DNA from: Candidatus Hadarchaeum sp.
Lineage (GTDB): Archaea > Hadarchaeota > Hadarchaeia > Hadarchaeales > Hadarchaeaceae
Direction: 5' to 3'
DNA: 35,334 nucleotides
Assembly (NCBI GenBank): GCA_020725055.1
Contig: DYFS01000007.1
Location: forward strand, 1 to 35,334
The position numbers were made by a program, and so were the translations under genes. This document shows positions 3,401-35,286 of the stretch, one piece after another; position 1 is the stretch's first letter, and each line of letters opens with the position of its first letter. The notes beneath the pieces were generated by a model. The model was not told where the DNA came from. It saw only the letters and a list, made by a program, of their open reading frames with translations, and ran no database searches.

Positions 3401-3798
3401 GCTACTATCAAAAATTGCACCACATGGCTGCGGACAAAATCCATGCCCGTGCCCGTGGCCCAGTACAAGTTCTCACGCGCCAGCCGACCGAGGGCAGGGC
3501 GCGCGAGGGGGGCCTGCGGTTCGGTGAGATGGAGCGTGATTGCTTGATCGGGCATGGTGCGGCGATGCTGCTGAAGGAGCGCCTGCTGGACAGCTCGGAC
3601 TGCTACACGGCCCTAGTATGCGGCAAGTGCGGAAGCCTTGCTGTTCACGATAGACGCCGCGACCGGATGTACTGCCCAACGTGCGGGGAGGAGTCGGACA
3701 TAAACGGGGTGGAGGTATCGTACGCGTTCAAACTGTTGCTCGATGAACTCCGGTCGATGTGCATGGCGCCGAAGTTGAAGTTGAGGGATAAGGCGTGA
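496..3798 (+). CDS. rpoB: DNA-directed RNA polymerase subunit B (unsplit)
   Basis: At 1100 residues this is the one-piece second-largest subunit; many euryarchaea carry it as separate B'' and B' genes. It forms one side of the active cleft. Hallmarks include the [15 protein letters not shown] region, the [12 protein letters not shown] segment, the [10 protein letters not shown] motif that contributes to nucleotide and catalytic-site contacts, and a C-terminal zinc-binding pair CGKCG (residues 1042-1046) with CPTCG about 15 residues later. The chosen start is TTG at 496, with GGAGGG just upstream in the rpoH tail; there is no ATG close by. It is followed after 9 bases by rpoA1. No frameshift or intein is seen. 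Confidence 0.97.
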
Positions 3799-3807
3799 GG
3801 TGATGGC

Positions 3808-7907
<4,100 letters not shown>

Positions 7908-30368: not shown

Positions 30369-30614
30369 GTGGTTACGGAAGTTGGGCGGGTTTGCGTGAA
30401 GCTGGCCGGGCACGAGGCTGGCAAGCGATGCGTCATCGTCGAGGTGATCGATCGCACCAACGTTTTGATCGCAGGCCCGGGGGTCAAGCGGAGGCGCTGC
30501 AACATCGCACACCTCGAGCCGCTGCCGCAGAAATTGGGGATCACAGAAGGCGCCACGGACGAAGAGATCAAGCGCGCACTCGAAGCGGTTGGTGCTGGTG
30601 GGGCAGTTGGGTAG
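30369..30614 (+). CDS. rpl14e: Ribosomal protein eL14
   Basis: An 81-residue large-subunit protein with a KOW-type beta barrel: VGRVCVKLAGHEAGKRCVIVEVID followed by VLIAGPGVKRRRCNIAHLEPL. GTG at 30369 starts two bases after the CMP kinase stop. The last 20 or so residues (Gly/Ala-rich) overlap the ribosome binding site and start of cbf5. Confidence 0.94.
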   Translation: MVTEVGRVCVKLAGHEAGKRCVIVEVIDRTNVLIAGPGVKRRRCNIAHLEPLPQKLGITEGATDEEIKRALEAVGAGGAVG

Positions 30615-33219
30615 GCTTCCATCGGATGTCGTGCGCGAGGTGCTCGTGCGAACCCATGATGTAACCGACCCCCGCTACGGCTGTAGACCGGGCGAGAGGC
30701 CGATGCGCGAGCACATCAGGCTGGGCGTGATAAACCTCGACAAGCCAATCGGACCGACGTCGCACGAGATAGTCGCGTGGGTTAAGCGCGTGCTCGAGGT
30801 CCGCCGCGCCGGGCACAGCGGGACACTCGACCCAAAGGTCAGCGGGGTGCTCCCGGTCGCCCTCGGGGATGCGACAAAACTCACCCAGGCGCTGCTACCG
30901 GCCGGCAAAGAGTACACGTGCGTGATGCACCTGCACGGCGAGGTCCCCAGGCACAAACTCGAGCAGGCGTTGCGGGAGTTCGAGGGTGAGGTGTACCAGC
31001 GACCCCCGGTGCGGGCCGCGGTGAAGCGGGCCCTGCGGAAGAGGCGGATTTACTACATCGAGCTTCTCGAATGCGAGGGACGTGACGTGCTCATGCGCAT
31101 CGGCTGCGAGGCTGGCACCTATGCGCGGAAGCTCTGTTTATCACCCCATACCGAGCTTTTCCTAACAAATGGGGGACTCGTGAGAATCAAAGATTTGGTT
31201 GAAAGTCCAGGTTTTACCAAAGATGGTAGGCATAAAGCATGCAGAACACCGACGCTTGCAGATTCCTTCCAAATAGGAGATAACGATATTGTGGCTTTTC
31301 AAAAACTGTCCGCGCCAAAAGAGATGGTTAAGATAACCACAAGCTCAGGGATAAGTCTGGAGGTAACCCCAGAACATGACATCTTAATTGATGCGGATGT
31401 CGGGAGTAAATGGTGCCCCGCGGGAAAACTTAAAAAAATAGATTTTATCTACTCTCCTCGCGTCATAGATCTTCATGAGGAAACACCTTACTTGATAGAC
31501 CTTTTGGATGAAGGTGTACTTGTTAACGACAAATCGATTAAGAACGCTTGCAAAGAGATTCTCCGGGGAAAATTTGGAAACATACGCAGGGCTGCGAAGA
31601 GATTAAACTTGAATCGAAGGGCGTTTTTTCCAGATAGTGAGCTGGGAATCAGTGTCAAAAATATCCAAAAGATCTGTGAAAACTGGGATGAACTAAAAAA
31701 ATGGATCGGTGAGCTTAAAGGGGAATCCGGTCAGATCGTGCGCTTGCCTCGGCGCACAGTAAACGAAGATTTAGCATATCTGCTCGGGCTACTCGCTTCG
31801 GATGGTTGCATCGTATTTGACATCAAAAGACATGTCCGGCCTCACAGGATTATATTTCACAATACAAGCGCGAAATTGAAAGATGAGTTCGTCAAACTCC
31901 ATAAAAAACTGTTCCCCGAGGTGCCGATTCACGTTAGGAGAGTTAGAAAAGATTTGTTCGAGGTAAAAACCGATAATTTTGTTCTAGCCGGGGTGGCCTT
32001 TTCTCTCGGTATCCGAAGCCCAAATGAAGAGTCAGAACTCGCACCACTACTCACACTTCCCAAATCCGCGATAGCAGCGTTTTTGAGGGGATATTTTGAT
32101 GGGGATGGTTTAGCCTTTTGCAAAAAGAAAACTCGAACAAAAGCATATGATACATTTATCCTGTTTACAACGGCAAACTACAAGACATCTAAACGGCTCT
32201 ATCAGCTCCTCAAAAGGATCGGCATTCGCAGCAAGATACTGCCAAGAAAAACACTCGGTGGTTTCCACCAATCTAATTCAAGGGCTTATGACGTGGTGGT
32301 AAATACTCCTGGCGACAAACTCAGGTTCATGGAAGAGATTGGGAGTTTCCATCCGCATAAACGAAAAGTTTTTGAGAGAATCAAAAAAGTGCTAAAACGA
32401 CACAGAGCCGTAGACGATTTTGATTACGTGAGCCAAAAATGTGTGCGCCTTATCAAGACCATCATGGGAAAACATAATGTTTCTAGAAATCAGTTGCGGT
32501 GCGGTGGGAGCATTTACGAAATTCTAAATGAAGAACGAAAGCCCATCCGCTATATTGTTAGAAAGATTTTGCATCGTTTTGATGAAATTGGTATTAGCGA
32601 CATGAATCTTGACGAGTTAAAAAAACTGTGTGAAGGCCAGTATTACCTAGAGAAAATCAAGTCCATTAGAAGAGTCAAAGCCAATGACCCCCACGTATTC
32701 GATTTAACAGTCGACTGCACCCACAATTTTATCCCCGAAGGAGCAATCGTTGTAAGCAATTGCTTCGACATCGGAGAGGTTCTGGGATGCGGCGCCCATA
32801 TGGCCGAGCTCAGGCGGACGCGGGCCGGACCGTTCCGCGAGGACGAAACGCTCACAAAACTGCACGATTTGGCGGACGCCTACGCGTTCTGGCGCGAGGA
32901 GGGAAGCGAGGAGTACCTCCGGAGGACGATTCTTCCTGTGGAGGCGGCAGTCGGGCACCTGCCGAAGCTGGTCGTCCGGGACGGGGCTGTCGATGCACTC
33001 TGCCACGGCGCGAGCCTAGCCGCCCCCGGGGTGCTGACGGTTGAAACCGGCATCTCGCAGGGTGACCTGGTAGCGCTGATGACGCTCAAGGGAGAGCTGA
33101 TATCCCTCGCGAGAGCCGAGATGGCATCGAAGCAGATTTGCGAAGCCGATCACGGCATAGTCGCGAAGCCCGAGCGCGTGGTGATGTCTCCAGGGGTTTA
33201 TCCAAAGAAGTGGAAGTGA
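30607..33219 (+). CDS. cbf5: tRNA/rRNA pseudouridine synthase Cbf5 precursor, interrupted by an intein
   Basis: Cbf5 (dyskerin homologue) is the catalytic subunit of H/ACA ribonucleoproteins and can also make tRNA pseudouridine 55. The precursor is 870 residues from TTG 30607. Removing the intein leaves 176 + 152 = 328 residues, the normal length. The N-extein has VINLDKPIGPTSHEIVAWVK and HSGTLDPKVSG with catalytic Asp75; the C-extein has GAHMAELRRTRAGPF, then a PUA domain (AAVGHLPKLVV, GDLVALMTLKGELISLA). The junction splits GTYARKL from CFDIGEVLG, a continuous stretch in intein-less Cbf5. In-frame TTG 30589 and GTG 30592/30598 are alternatives. It overlaps eL14 by 8 bases. Confidence 0.95.
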   Translation: MGRLPSDVVREVLVRTHDVTDPRYGCRPGERPMREHIRLGVINLDKPIGPTSHEIVAWVKRVLEVRRAGHSGTLDPKVSGVLPVALGDATKLTQALLPAGKEYTCVMHLHGEVPRHKLEQALREFEGEVYQRPPVRAAVKRALRKRRIYYIELLECEGRDVLMRIGCEAGTYARKLCLSPHTELFLTNGGLVRIKDLVESPGFTKDGRHKACRTPTLADSFQIGDNDIVAFQKLSAPKEMVKITTSSGISLEVTPEHDILIDADVGSKWCPAGKLKKIDFIYSPRVIDLHEETPYLIDLLDEGVLVNDKSIKNACKEILRGKFGNIRRAAKRLNLNRRAFFPDSELGISVKNIQKICENWDELKKWIGELKGESGQIVRLPRRTVNEDLAYLLGLLASDGCIVFDIKRHVRPHRIIFHNTSAKLKDEFVKLHKKLFPEVPIHVRRVRKDLFEVKTDNFVLAGVAFSLGIRSPNEESELAPLLTLPKSAIAAFLRGYFDGDGLAFCKKKTRTKAYDTFILFTTANYKTSKRLYQLLKRIGIRSKILPRKTLGGFHQSNSRAYDVVVNTPGDKLRFMEEIGSFHPHKRKVFERIKKVLKRHRAVDDFDYVSQKCVRLIKTIMGKHNVSRNQLRCGGSIYEILNEERKPIRYIVRKILHRFDEIGISDMNLDELKKLCEGQYYLEKIKSIRRVKANDPHVFDLTVDCTHNFIPEGAIVVSNCFDIGEVLGCGAHMAELRRTRAGPFREDETLTKLHDLADAYAFWREEGSEEYLRRTILPVEAAVGHLPKLVVRDGAVDALCHGASLAAPGVLTVETGISQGDLVALMTLKGELISLARAEMASKQICEADHGIVAKPERVVMSPGVYPKKWK
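31135..32760 (+). mobile_element. Intein with LAGLIDADG homing endonuclease, in cbf5
   Basis: Residues numbered from intein Cys1. Block A is CLSPHTELFLTNGGLV. Block B contains TPEH (Thr78-His81), the residues that assist N-S acyl shift. Two dodecapeptide endonuclease motifs are intact: LLGLLASDG with Asp223 and LRGYFDGDG with Asp324, so the endonuclease may be active. Block F is HVFDLTVDCTHNF with His530, and block G ends VVSN before extein Cys+1. The penultimate residue is Ser541 where His is usual. Length is 542 residues. GC is lower than in the host: by hand count 21 of 60 bases at 32101-32160 against 37 of 60 at 32881-32940. That composition points to horizontal acquisition. Confidence 0.95.
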
Positions 33220-33244: not shown

Positions 33245-33260
33245 TGTTACATATGTAACA
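33245..33260. promoter_or_regulatory. 16-bp perfect palindrome TGTTACATATGTAACA, copy 1
   Basis: The sequence reads the same on both strands and lies 25 bases after the cbf5 stop, about 86 bases before tRNA-Ser(GGA). A second copy at 35271, differing only at the two central bases, shares the flanks TTTTATG-like on the left and GTAAAATC on the right. It is either a regulator-binding site or a short dispersed repeat. No protein is identified for it. Confidence 0.6.
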
Positions 33261-33346: not shown

Positions 33347-33434
33347 GCCGGGGTAGCCAAGTCAGGTAAGGCGCATGCCTGGAGAGCATGTGGCCCTTCG
33401 GGCCTCCAGGGTTCAAATCCCTGCCCCGGCGCCA
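33347..33434 (+). tRNA. tRNA-Ser(GGA)
   Basis: An 88-base class II tRNA with acceptor GCCGGGG pairing with CCCCGGC (33424-33430), discriminator G at 33431 and encoded CCA at 33432-33434. The anticodon loop CTGGAGA lies between CATGC and GCATG stems, giving anticodon GGA. The long variable arm is GGCCC TTC GGGCC. It differs from tRNA-Ser(UGA) at 11163 at about seven positions, most of them compensated stem pairs or the anticodon. No intron is present. Confidence 0.95.
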
Positions 33435-33715
33435 AACACTTCTGGTGACTGTTGTCCCAAAACCTGTATGTGTACTTAGCTCACGCGCCGGGGATTGTAA
33501 TTCCAGTAGCCTTGGCCCGTGCATCAACACCCCCGTTGATCCTTGCAGCCCTCACAAAAATCAACACCCCTGTTGACAGCGGTGCGTGGACCCTAAAACG
33601 CGATGTGAACGTCGTCTCGATGCCCACCGCAAACGACAGAACAGTTAAATGCATACGTTTGCCCAGCCATTCGAAGGTGCTTAATACGACTTCAAACAAA
33701 CTAGAAGAAGATGGT
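33435..33715. other. 281-base non-coding interval ahead of uS13, with paired inverted repeats
   Basis: No recognisable gene lies here. An in-frame extension of uS13 is open across the whole interval from 33452, but its translation resembles no family and would precede the family-standard uS13 start. The interval holds the two repeats described separately and a possible TATA element GTTAAATGCA at 33644-33653, which would give a transcript starting near 33675. Confidence 0.6.
33523..33577. repeat. Two copies of an ATCAAC...GTTGAY inverted repeat
   Basis: ATCAACACCCCCGTTGAT (33523-33540) and ATCAACACCCCTGTTGAC (33560-33577) match at 16 of 18 bases and are 37 bases apart. Each contains TCAAC and GTTGA arms around a six-base C-rich centre. 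They lie roughly 140-190 bases before the uS13 ATG. They could be paired operator sites or RNA hairpins in a leader. Confidence 0.55.
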
Positions 33716-34270
33716 ATGCCGGTGGAATTCAAGCACATCGTGCGCCTTGCGGGCAAGGACCTGAGCGGCGAGAAGCGGGTCCAGCTCGCGCTTGCCGACC
33801 TCAAGGGCGTGAGCGTGATGATGGCCCGCGCGGTCGCATATGCGGCGAAGGTGAACCCGATGGTGAAGCTGGGCAGCTTGGACAAGGAGGAGATAAAGAG
33901 GCTGGAGGAGGTGGTTTCCCAGCCCCAAGCCCACGGCGTCCCGGGCTGGATGCTCGACCGCAGGAAGGACCAGGACACCGGCAAGGACATCCACATCATA
34001 GGCGCCGAGATCGATCGGAGGGTCCGCGCGGACATCGCCTTGGAGCGCAGGGTAAGGAGCCGGCGCGGCATAAGGCACGAGCTCGGCCTGCCTGTTAGGG
34101 GGCAGCGGACCCGCTCGACCGGCCGCAGGGGGATGGTGGTCGGGGTTAAGCGCAAAGAGATCCGCATCCGCGAGGCAGAGGCCGCCGCGAAGCGCGGGGA
34201 GGCTCCGAAGCGCGGGAAGGTGAAGGAGGAGAAGCCGGCGGAAGAAAAGGAGGCGAAGGAGGAGAAGTGA
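33716..34270 (+). CDS. rps13: Ribosomal protein uS13 with a charged C-terminal tail
   Basis: A small-subunit head protein contacting P-site tRNA; 184 residues from ATG 33716, which gives the archaeal start MPVEFKHIVRLAGKDL. The DLKGVSVMMARAVAYAA helix region and the C-terminal SRRGIRHELGLPVRGQRTRSTGRRG are diagnostic. The last 35 or so residues are a Lys/Glu-rich tail, common in archaeal forms. The longer open frame upstream is rejected. uS4 starts four bases after the stop. Confidence 0.95.
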   Translation: MPVEFKHIVRLAGKDLSGEKRVQLALADLKGVSVMMARAVAYAAKVNPMVKLGSLDKEEIKRLEEVVSQPQAHGVPGWMLDRRKDQDTGKDIHIIGAEIDRRVRADIALERRVRSRRGIRHELGLPVRGQRTRSTGRRGMVVGVKRKEIRIREAEAAAKRGEAPKRGKVKEEKPAEEKEAKEEK

Positions 34271-34274
34271 TCGC

Positions 34275-34841
34275 GTGGGCGACCCCAAGAAGCAGCGAAA
34301 GAAATTCCTCAGGCCATCCCACCCGTGGGAGAAGGAGCGGATAGAGGCGGAGAACAAACTGCTCAGCCGGTACGGGCTACGCCGGAAGGAGGAGGTCTGG
34401 AAGGCCGAGACGGTGCTCCGCGGCTTCAGGCGGAACGCCCGGCGCCTGCTCACGGCATCCGGGCCGCAGGCGGAGCTCGAGACTAGGCAGATGCTGGAGA
34501 GGTTCCGCCGCCTCGGTTTGGTGGCGGGCGATGCAACCCTCGACAGCGTGCTCGGTCTGACGGTTGAGGACATCTTTGGGAGGCGCCTGCAGACGCTCGT
34601 TCACAAAAAGGGTCTGGCGAGGACGCTGCTCCAGGCGCGCCAGCTCGTGCTCCACGGCCACATCACGGTCGGGGGCAGGCGCGTGGCCGTGCCGGGTTAC
34701 CTCGTGAGCGTGGCCGAGGAAGGGGTGATCGACCGCGTCGGGGGTATGCCGACAGAGGAGCGACCAAAGCCGGAGGAGCCAGCGACCAAGGTTGGTGAAG
34801 CCCAAGGCGCCCAAGGGCAGGTTGAACCGGAGGAGGGATGA
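34275..34841 (+). CDS. rps4: Ribosomal protein uS4
   Basis: A primary 16S rRNA-binding assembly protein, 188 residues. The archaeal N-terminus [17 protein letters not shown] and the S4 domain ([35 protein letters not shown], seen in adjacent parts) are clear. The last 30 residues are Glu/Pro/Gly-rich and low-complexity. GTG at 34275 follows AGGAGAAGTGATC. The stop overlaps the uS11 ATG as ATGA. Confidence 0.95.
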
Positions 34842-35233
34842 GCGTGCCAGAGGGTAAGTGGGGGGTGGCTCACATATTTTCATCTTTCAACAACACCATC
34901 GTGCACGTAACGGACCTGACAGGCGCGGAGACCGTTTCGCGCTGGTCGGGCGGCATGATTGTGAAGGCCGACCGCGAGGAGTCCTCACCGTACGCGGCGA
35001 TGCAGGCGGCTGCTCGAGCTGCCGAGGAGGCGATGGAAAAGGGCTTCACGGGCGTCCACATCAAGGTCCGCGCCCCGGGGGGCAGCGGTTCCAAGAGCCC
35101 GGGGCCGGGAGCTCAGGCCGCGATCCGGGCGCTCGCGCGAGCTGGCATGCAGATAGGGAGAATCGAGGACGCAACGCCGACGCCGCACGATGGGGTCAAG
35201 CGCAAGGGCGGAAGGAGAGGCCGCAGAGTCTAG
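34838..35233 (+). CDS. rps11: Ribosomal protein uS11
   Basis: A platform protein of the small subunit close to mRNA and the E site; 131 residues. [20 protein letters not shown] at the start, [21 protein letters not shown] in the middle and the ending [23 protein letters not shown] identify it. ATG at 34838 overlaps the uS4 stop by four bases. In most archaea rpoD follows in this operon, but the DNA after 35233 looks intergenic to the window edge with palindrome and promoter-like elements. Confidence 0.96.
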
Positions 35234-35270: not shown

Positions 35271-35286
35271 TGTTACACGTGTAACA
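35271..35286. promoter_or_regulatory. 16-bp perfect palindrome TGTTACACGTGTAACA, copy 2
   Basis: It lies 37 bases after the uS11 stop and repeats the palindrome at 33245, with CG in place of TA at the centre. The right flank GTAAAATC is identical in both copies. It sits just ahead of a TATA-like element, so a regulatory role for whatever gene follows the window is possible. Confidence 0.6.

Follow-up and report, generated by a model that had tools for sequence, protein, structure and literature searches.

Paired palindromes ahead of uS13 in a hadarchaeon: most likely an orphaned operator array of a putative self-linked XRE/Cro-like regulator

Introduction

Three kinds of described system come closest to the locus reported here. 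The C proteins of restriction–modification systems, such as C.Esp1396I and C.Kpn2I, are small XRE-type autoregulators whose gene lies beside paired dyads near its own promoter, and C.Kpn2I additionally forms an elongation roadblock from a site within its own gene (PMC6237814). A second precedent is provided by the phage repressors CI, Cro and P22 c2 and by the stoperators of cluster A mycobacteriophages, where the sites co-vary with the repressor (PMC6550527). Finally, the attC cassettes of integrons have palindromic sites flanking a single small gene, and integrons have been detected in 3-4% of Hadarchaeota genomes (PMC9668308).

Each of the three systems resembles the archaeal loci analysed here in part and also differs from them. 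Unlike the targets of C proteins, the archaeal sites include many dispersed copies at housekeeping genes, and no restriction or methylase gene was found among the Pfam-tested neighbours, which are of CBM96/pilin type around the unit on contig C41 and of T2SSE/T2SSF type around the units of genomes G016 and G017. Stoperators are asymmetric 13-bp sites, whereas those described here are dyads and lie on archaeal chromosomal genes. The R-box of integrons has the consensus GTTRRRY; in contrast, the present sites are ~20 bp long, do not fit this consensus and accompany one gene family only. No such family of regulators and palindromes was found described in the literature searched, which partially covered Hadesarchaea HTH proteins, Hadarchaeota genomes and archaeal palindromic operators. 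On sequence grounds, we consider it probable that the repeats are operator-like dyads belonging to self-linked regulator/operator units of this archaeal family.

Results

A pair of palindromes occupies the gap between tRNA-Ser and uS13

The window, i.e. the whole stretch of 35,334 nt that was analysed, ends in the ribosomal protein genes uS13, uS4 and uS11 (Table 1). The first-pass annotation had reported two 18-base copies in an unusually long gap ahead of these genes, and both observations were confirmed: the copies are identical at 16 of 18 positions, start 37 nt apart and are each a dyad, while the gap measures 281 nt from the end of tRNA-Ser(gga) at 33434 to the uS13 start (taken as 33716). 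Because the upstream neighbour is this tRNA gene, the gap runs from tRNA to uS13. Copy 2 is better written as two 6-bp arms flanking CCCC (TCAACA-CCCC-TGTTGA).

Table 1. Coordinates of features at the tRNA-Ser/uS13 locus of the window
Feature	Position	Strand	Remarks
tRNA-Ser (anticodon gga)	33347..33434	+	ARAGORN; insertion begins after 3′ end
Insertion without counterpart in relatives, approximate extent	33435..33665	.	Gap lengths; right edge = conserved TTCGAA...CTTAATA
Left arm; homology to C41 to the left of site 1 there	33477..33522	+	
Palindrome 1, operator-like dyad	33523..33540	+	ATCAACACCCCCGTTGAT
Spacer between palindromes	33541..33559	+	Homologous to C41 spacer, sites 2-3
Palindrome 2, operator-like dyad	33560..33577	+	ATCAACACCCCTGTTGAC
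Right arm; homology to C41 beyond site 3 there, on its downstream side	33578..33656	+	
CTTAATA, TATA-like box of uS13	33680..33686	+	Aligned with 8 relatives; promoter role inferred
uS13	33716..34270	+	Pfam PF00416
uS4	34275..34841	+	Pfam PF01479 above cut-off, PF00163 below
uS11	34838..35233	+	Pfam PF00411

When the 281-nt gap was shuffled with its dinucleotides preserved, at least one 6-6-6 palindrome arose in 62 of 1000 shuffles and a 17-mer direct repeat matching at 16 or more of 17 positions in none (0/1000). An isolated palindrome of such a size is thus common and unremarkable, whereas the pair is not, and a chance origin of the pair was rejected.

The organism's own genome, which comprises 1.09 Mb in 53 contigs and is 90% complete, contains four forward matches to ATCAACN6GTTGAY, namely the window pair and a second pair on contig C41, both with the 37-nt spacing. 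An additional, unpaired reverse match lies on C13; the reversed control pattern gave no matches in this genome. The 15-mer CAACACCCCNGTTGA is found exactly five times, twice in the window and three times on C41. Genomes G040 and G131 contain one copy each of the 15-mer; these were taken as chance and do not enter the tally of dispersed sites given below.

The palindromes lie in an insertion upstream of a conserved TATA-like box

Since uS13 was found in 19 of the 22 genomes of the family, including the organism's own, 18 relatives could be compared. ARAGORN places a tRNA-Ser ahead of uS13 in 11 of them and detects no intact tRNA there in the other seven. Where an intact tRNA-Ser is present, 54-77 nt separate it from uS13 in ten relatives and 310 nt in G004. 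In an alignment with eight relatives, the TTCGAA...CTTAATA stretch that precedes uS13 proved to be conserved, and the window retains it on the downstream side of the repeats. The repeats therefore lie within an insertion of ~220 nt. Besides C41, the only match to the insert was one of 33 nt in G002, coding-like by eye. The 310-nt gap of G004 seems by eye to contain a related remnant; its site has a broken right arm and is the sole dyad-like copy among the fetched uS13 loci of relatives, a few of which contain a bare ACACCCC.

These data bear on the proposal, made in the first-pass annotation, that the repeats could be RNA hairpins for ribosomal-protein autoregulation, with uS4 or uS13 acting on its own leader. 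The repeats do precede uS13-uS4-uS11 in a long gap, and read-through from the tRNA could still transcribe them. However, they are part of an insertion, the conserved uS13 box lies downstream of them, and the same array adjoins an HTH gene in pilin/CBM96-type surroundings on C41. The comparison of relatives, which that annotation had itself put forward as a possible refutation, revealed an element that is not conserved across orthologous operons: 17 of the 18 relatives lack the repeats and G004 retains one degenerate site. We therefore rejected a ribosomal-protein leader element, regard autoregulation through these repeats as extremely improbable, and remove a false lead on ribosomal-protein control.

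In three relatives a tyrosine-integrase ORF adjoins the 3′ part of the tRNA-Ser ahead of uS13 (G018, L122; G020, L123; G019, L124). Pfam was run on two of these ORFs and identified PF00589 in G018 (1.2e-9) and only a SAM-like domain in the G019 fragment. With integrase ORFs at this position in three genomes, the tRNA-Ser looks like an integration hot spot. The tRNA-Ser/uS13 gap emerges as a landing place for foreign DNA.

A homologous array on C41 encloses an HTH gene

Window positions 33477-33660 align with C41 6023-6560, with 143 of 163 aligned columns identical (also found by blastn). The window lacks one 367-nt block, whose length equals the spacing of sites 1 and 2 on C41, and within this block the minus strand codes for a ~98-aa XRE/Cro-like HTH protein (G000:C41 6089-6382). 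By reading, the gene begins with TTG behind a TATA-like box, and sites 2 and 3 are situated just upstream of that box. The insertion that separates tRNA-Ser from the conserved uS13 promoter region thus holds the array of the C41 unit but not the HTH gene. Of the two functions that the first-pass annotation had offered, the operator fits this arrangement, in which the same palindromes flank the HTH gene and lie just upstream of its TATA-like box; the RNA hairpin for ribosomal-protein autoregulation is not supported.

A structure model of the HTH protein is all helical (pLDDT 82.6, pTM 0.74). Its best matches among solved structures include XRE regulators, C.Esp1396I, P22 c2 and 434 Cro, at E values of 0.4 or more that are not significant. 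NCBIfam, PADLOC and PHROGs searches with the protein returned only weak, mixed HTH matches.

A second unit of the same genome, on C32, likewise corresponds to an orphan pair, which is located on C12 between two convergent ORFs and whose spacer is homologous to that of the unit (84% over 94 columns).

In the model that we favour, each unit consists of a ~98-aa XRE/Cro-like HTH gene accompanied by its own palindrome in several copies. The C41 protein would bind the dyads as a dimer, control its own promoter and be able to bind dispersed copies in trans. Having lost its regulator gene, the window pair would most likely be a relic or an orphan bound in trans, with little direct effect on uS13-uS4-uS11.

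HTH genes of the family are linked to paralogue-specific palindromes

A profile built from 14 of the HTH proteins was searched against 28 genomes of the phylum. Strong matches numbered 17, in 8 of the 28 genomes (family f1 plus G022 of family f2), and G011 gave a weak one; the 17 include the 14 profile rows, and all of them had already been found by single-protein search. Close matches in named records, at seven loci, all came from Hadesarchaea relatives. For the analysis of linked sites we used 16 loci, leaving out G011:C134 (the weak match) and G003:C6 (one in-frame stop); 14 of the 16 are profile rows. Within 450 bp, two or more palindromes centred on CCCC were present at all 16 HTH loci versus 1 of 61 control segments, and such palindromes numbered 52 in 17,085 bp of HTH loci versus 5 in 92,336 bp of control DNA, which consisted of window positions 1-33300 and the uS13 loci of relatives.

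The arms of these palindromes are specific to each paralogue. Those preceding CCCC include TGTCAACA, AACTTYACA, AACTACACA and TTGTTCGCA, with ACAACT and GGACAY as others, while further paralogues have, read on the other strand, GTTTAAACY, TCGGACT, TGTAACY, GTGGAAACY or TTCGTACY. Regulator and site can be read together at each locus, giving a naturally occurring set of some eleven arm types, each with its protein, from which it may be learnt how XRE-like proteins shift DNA specificity while dispersed sites follow. Pfam mostly reported HTH families below cut-off; the G014:C24 member passes HTH_3 (27.3 versus 23 bits). Two hallmarks of an XRE/Cro-type autoregulator are found here: an HTH protein of that type, and operator-like dyads beside its own promoter, their position at the TATA-like box being judged by eye.

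Divergent HTH paralogues were also seen by eye to share a TATA-like box followed by a CCTCCACCCAAAGCMTCGGCGGGA-like leader although their arms differ; this holds for L058, L060, L061, L063 and L064, all of them HTH genes from G000 or G003.

Of the 23 matching genomes among 394 searched, 15 lie outside the phylum and contribute 17 matches (E 1.6e-13 to 7.3e-6). Eleven of these matches were inspected, and none has two CCCC palindromes; two had one weak palindrome each. We also considered a viral origin and rejected it: tandem palindromes of similar letters occur on L161, yet the 53 candidate stretches of viral contigs encode no relative of the HTH protein. The L161 repeats, at 3690-3880 of this IMG/VR contig, are tandem TCAACAGGGGTGTTGACCCCAGG-like units whose relation to the archaeal sites is perhaps one of chance.

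Dispersed sites recur at orthologous genes

Across the 22 genomes of the family, the core ACACCCCTGT was counted 144 times, compared with 31 times for the reversed control; 18 of the 22 contain it. Within the fetched loci, 105 sites passed the dyad filter and have the start of an ORF at -8 to +220 nt: 42 are of the window type, group A (TMA|TKA), 48 belong to group B (TTY|RAA) and 15 to neither. Distances from site to start are approximate, since a crude rule was used to call ORFs. Sites recur at orthologous genes: among the matches listed, at an mnhC-like gene in at least eight genomes, an MbhD-like gene in at least seven, HisA/HisF in at least five and type I dehydroquinase in at least four (gene identities come from Pfam runs on single members). 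The arms at such genes differ from genome to genome: the HisA/HisF sites have, again among the matches listed, group-A arms in G000, G003 and partly G014, and group-B arms in G010 and G016. The start-codon sites of housekeeping genes (HisA/HisF, dehydroquinase, mnh-type antiporter subunits, secretion-type ATPase) point to a testable regulon.

The position of many group-B sites raises the question of whether the palindromes act as RNA hairpins, in which the GGGG strand would expose AGGGGTG in a loop as a Shine–Dalgarno sequence and a protein or the fold itself would control translation. Consistent with this, 37 of the 48 group-B sites are GGGG-sense and lie -8 to +20 nt from an ORF start, where AGGGGTG could be a Shine–Dalgarno sequence, a fraction that is conditional on the set holding only sites near ORF starts. 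However, the window sites are CCCC-sense with respect to uS13 and, like the sites at HTH-A genes, lie upstream of a TATA-like box. Moreover, the variable base differs between the two halves in 15 of the 42 group-A sites, giving hybrids unable to pair, and shows no significant association between halves (p = 0.12); such independent variation favours DNA half-sites over an RNA stem. Control through RNA hairpins is accordingly judged very unlikely, and we return to DNA operators as the preferred reading.

Within genomes, group-B arms are largely uniform. They are all TTT in G005 (5), G014 (8) and G021 (3), and TTC in 10 of 12 in G016, 6 of 7 in G010 and 6 of 7 in G017; two hybrids occur in G019 and one of each in G020. 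At their HTH-B genes, G014, G016 and G017 have arms that match the group-B sites of the same genome. Part of this uniformity may reflect shared ancestry. The profile search did not find the family HTH gene in the site-bearing genomes G002, G005, G010 and G018-G021; G002, which is 92% complete, has six group-A sites.

The usual distance from site to start at HTH-A genes is ~50 nt among the matches listed. The TATA-like box of uS13 begins ~100 nt beyond the window repeats, and compared with the usual HTH-A spacing the window sites seem too far from it. Taken as a whole, the comparison of sequences indicates that the repeats are a real feature, and that this insertion next to tRNA-Ser most likely contains an operator array that has been orphaned.

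The HTH gene is present or absent between sites at the same junction

The window and C41, with the array lacking and containing the HTH gene, could also be read as the empty and filled states of a mobile unit bounded by the palindromes, whose HTH cassette enters and leaves pre-existing sites. The same alternation is seen, for another group of sites, between a T2SSE-ATPase and a T2SSF-like gene: in G010:C66 and G016:C100 the junction reads site-8 nt-site, and with the same flanking genes the HTH gene lies between the sites in G016:C91, G017:C188 (where the contig ends in the right-hand sites) and G014:C31. In addition, G014 contains two near-identical HTH copies whose surrounding DNA diverges just past a site, although only one edge per copy is visible because the contigs end inside the repeat. 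Against mobility, deletion between short direct repeats would explain loss of the gene without it, the unit contains no recombinase, and no gain has been polarised on a tree. We therefore regard an empty mobile-unit site in the window as unlikely.

The same low probability attaches to the broader idea that an HTH gene with its own palindromes constitutes a minimal self-addressing mobile cassette, which would enter copies of its own operator and leave an operator pair when lost. If so, units would change their address (the arms) yet keep a fixed CCCC core, and a small archaeal genome would carry several mutually insulated units with sites settling at host start codons.

The secretion-type junction occurs in the G016 MAG both with the HTH gene (C91, L051) and without it (C100, L114), representing either two loci or two strains.

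Other features of the window

Upstream of the tRNA-Ser, positions 30589-33219 encode an intein-containing pseudouridine synthase of the Cbf5/TruB type (Pfam Intein_splicing, LAGLIDADG_3). The perfect palindrome TGTTACANNTGTAACA is found twice in the window, at 33245-33260 and 35271-35286. Across the organism's own genome it occurs at 12 places exactly and at three more with one mismatch, compared with none for the reversed control; it is an independent dispersed motif and possibly another operator.
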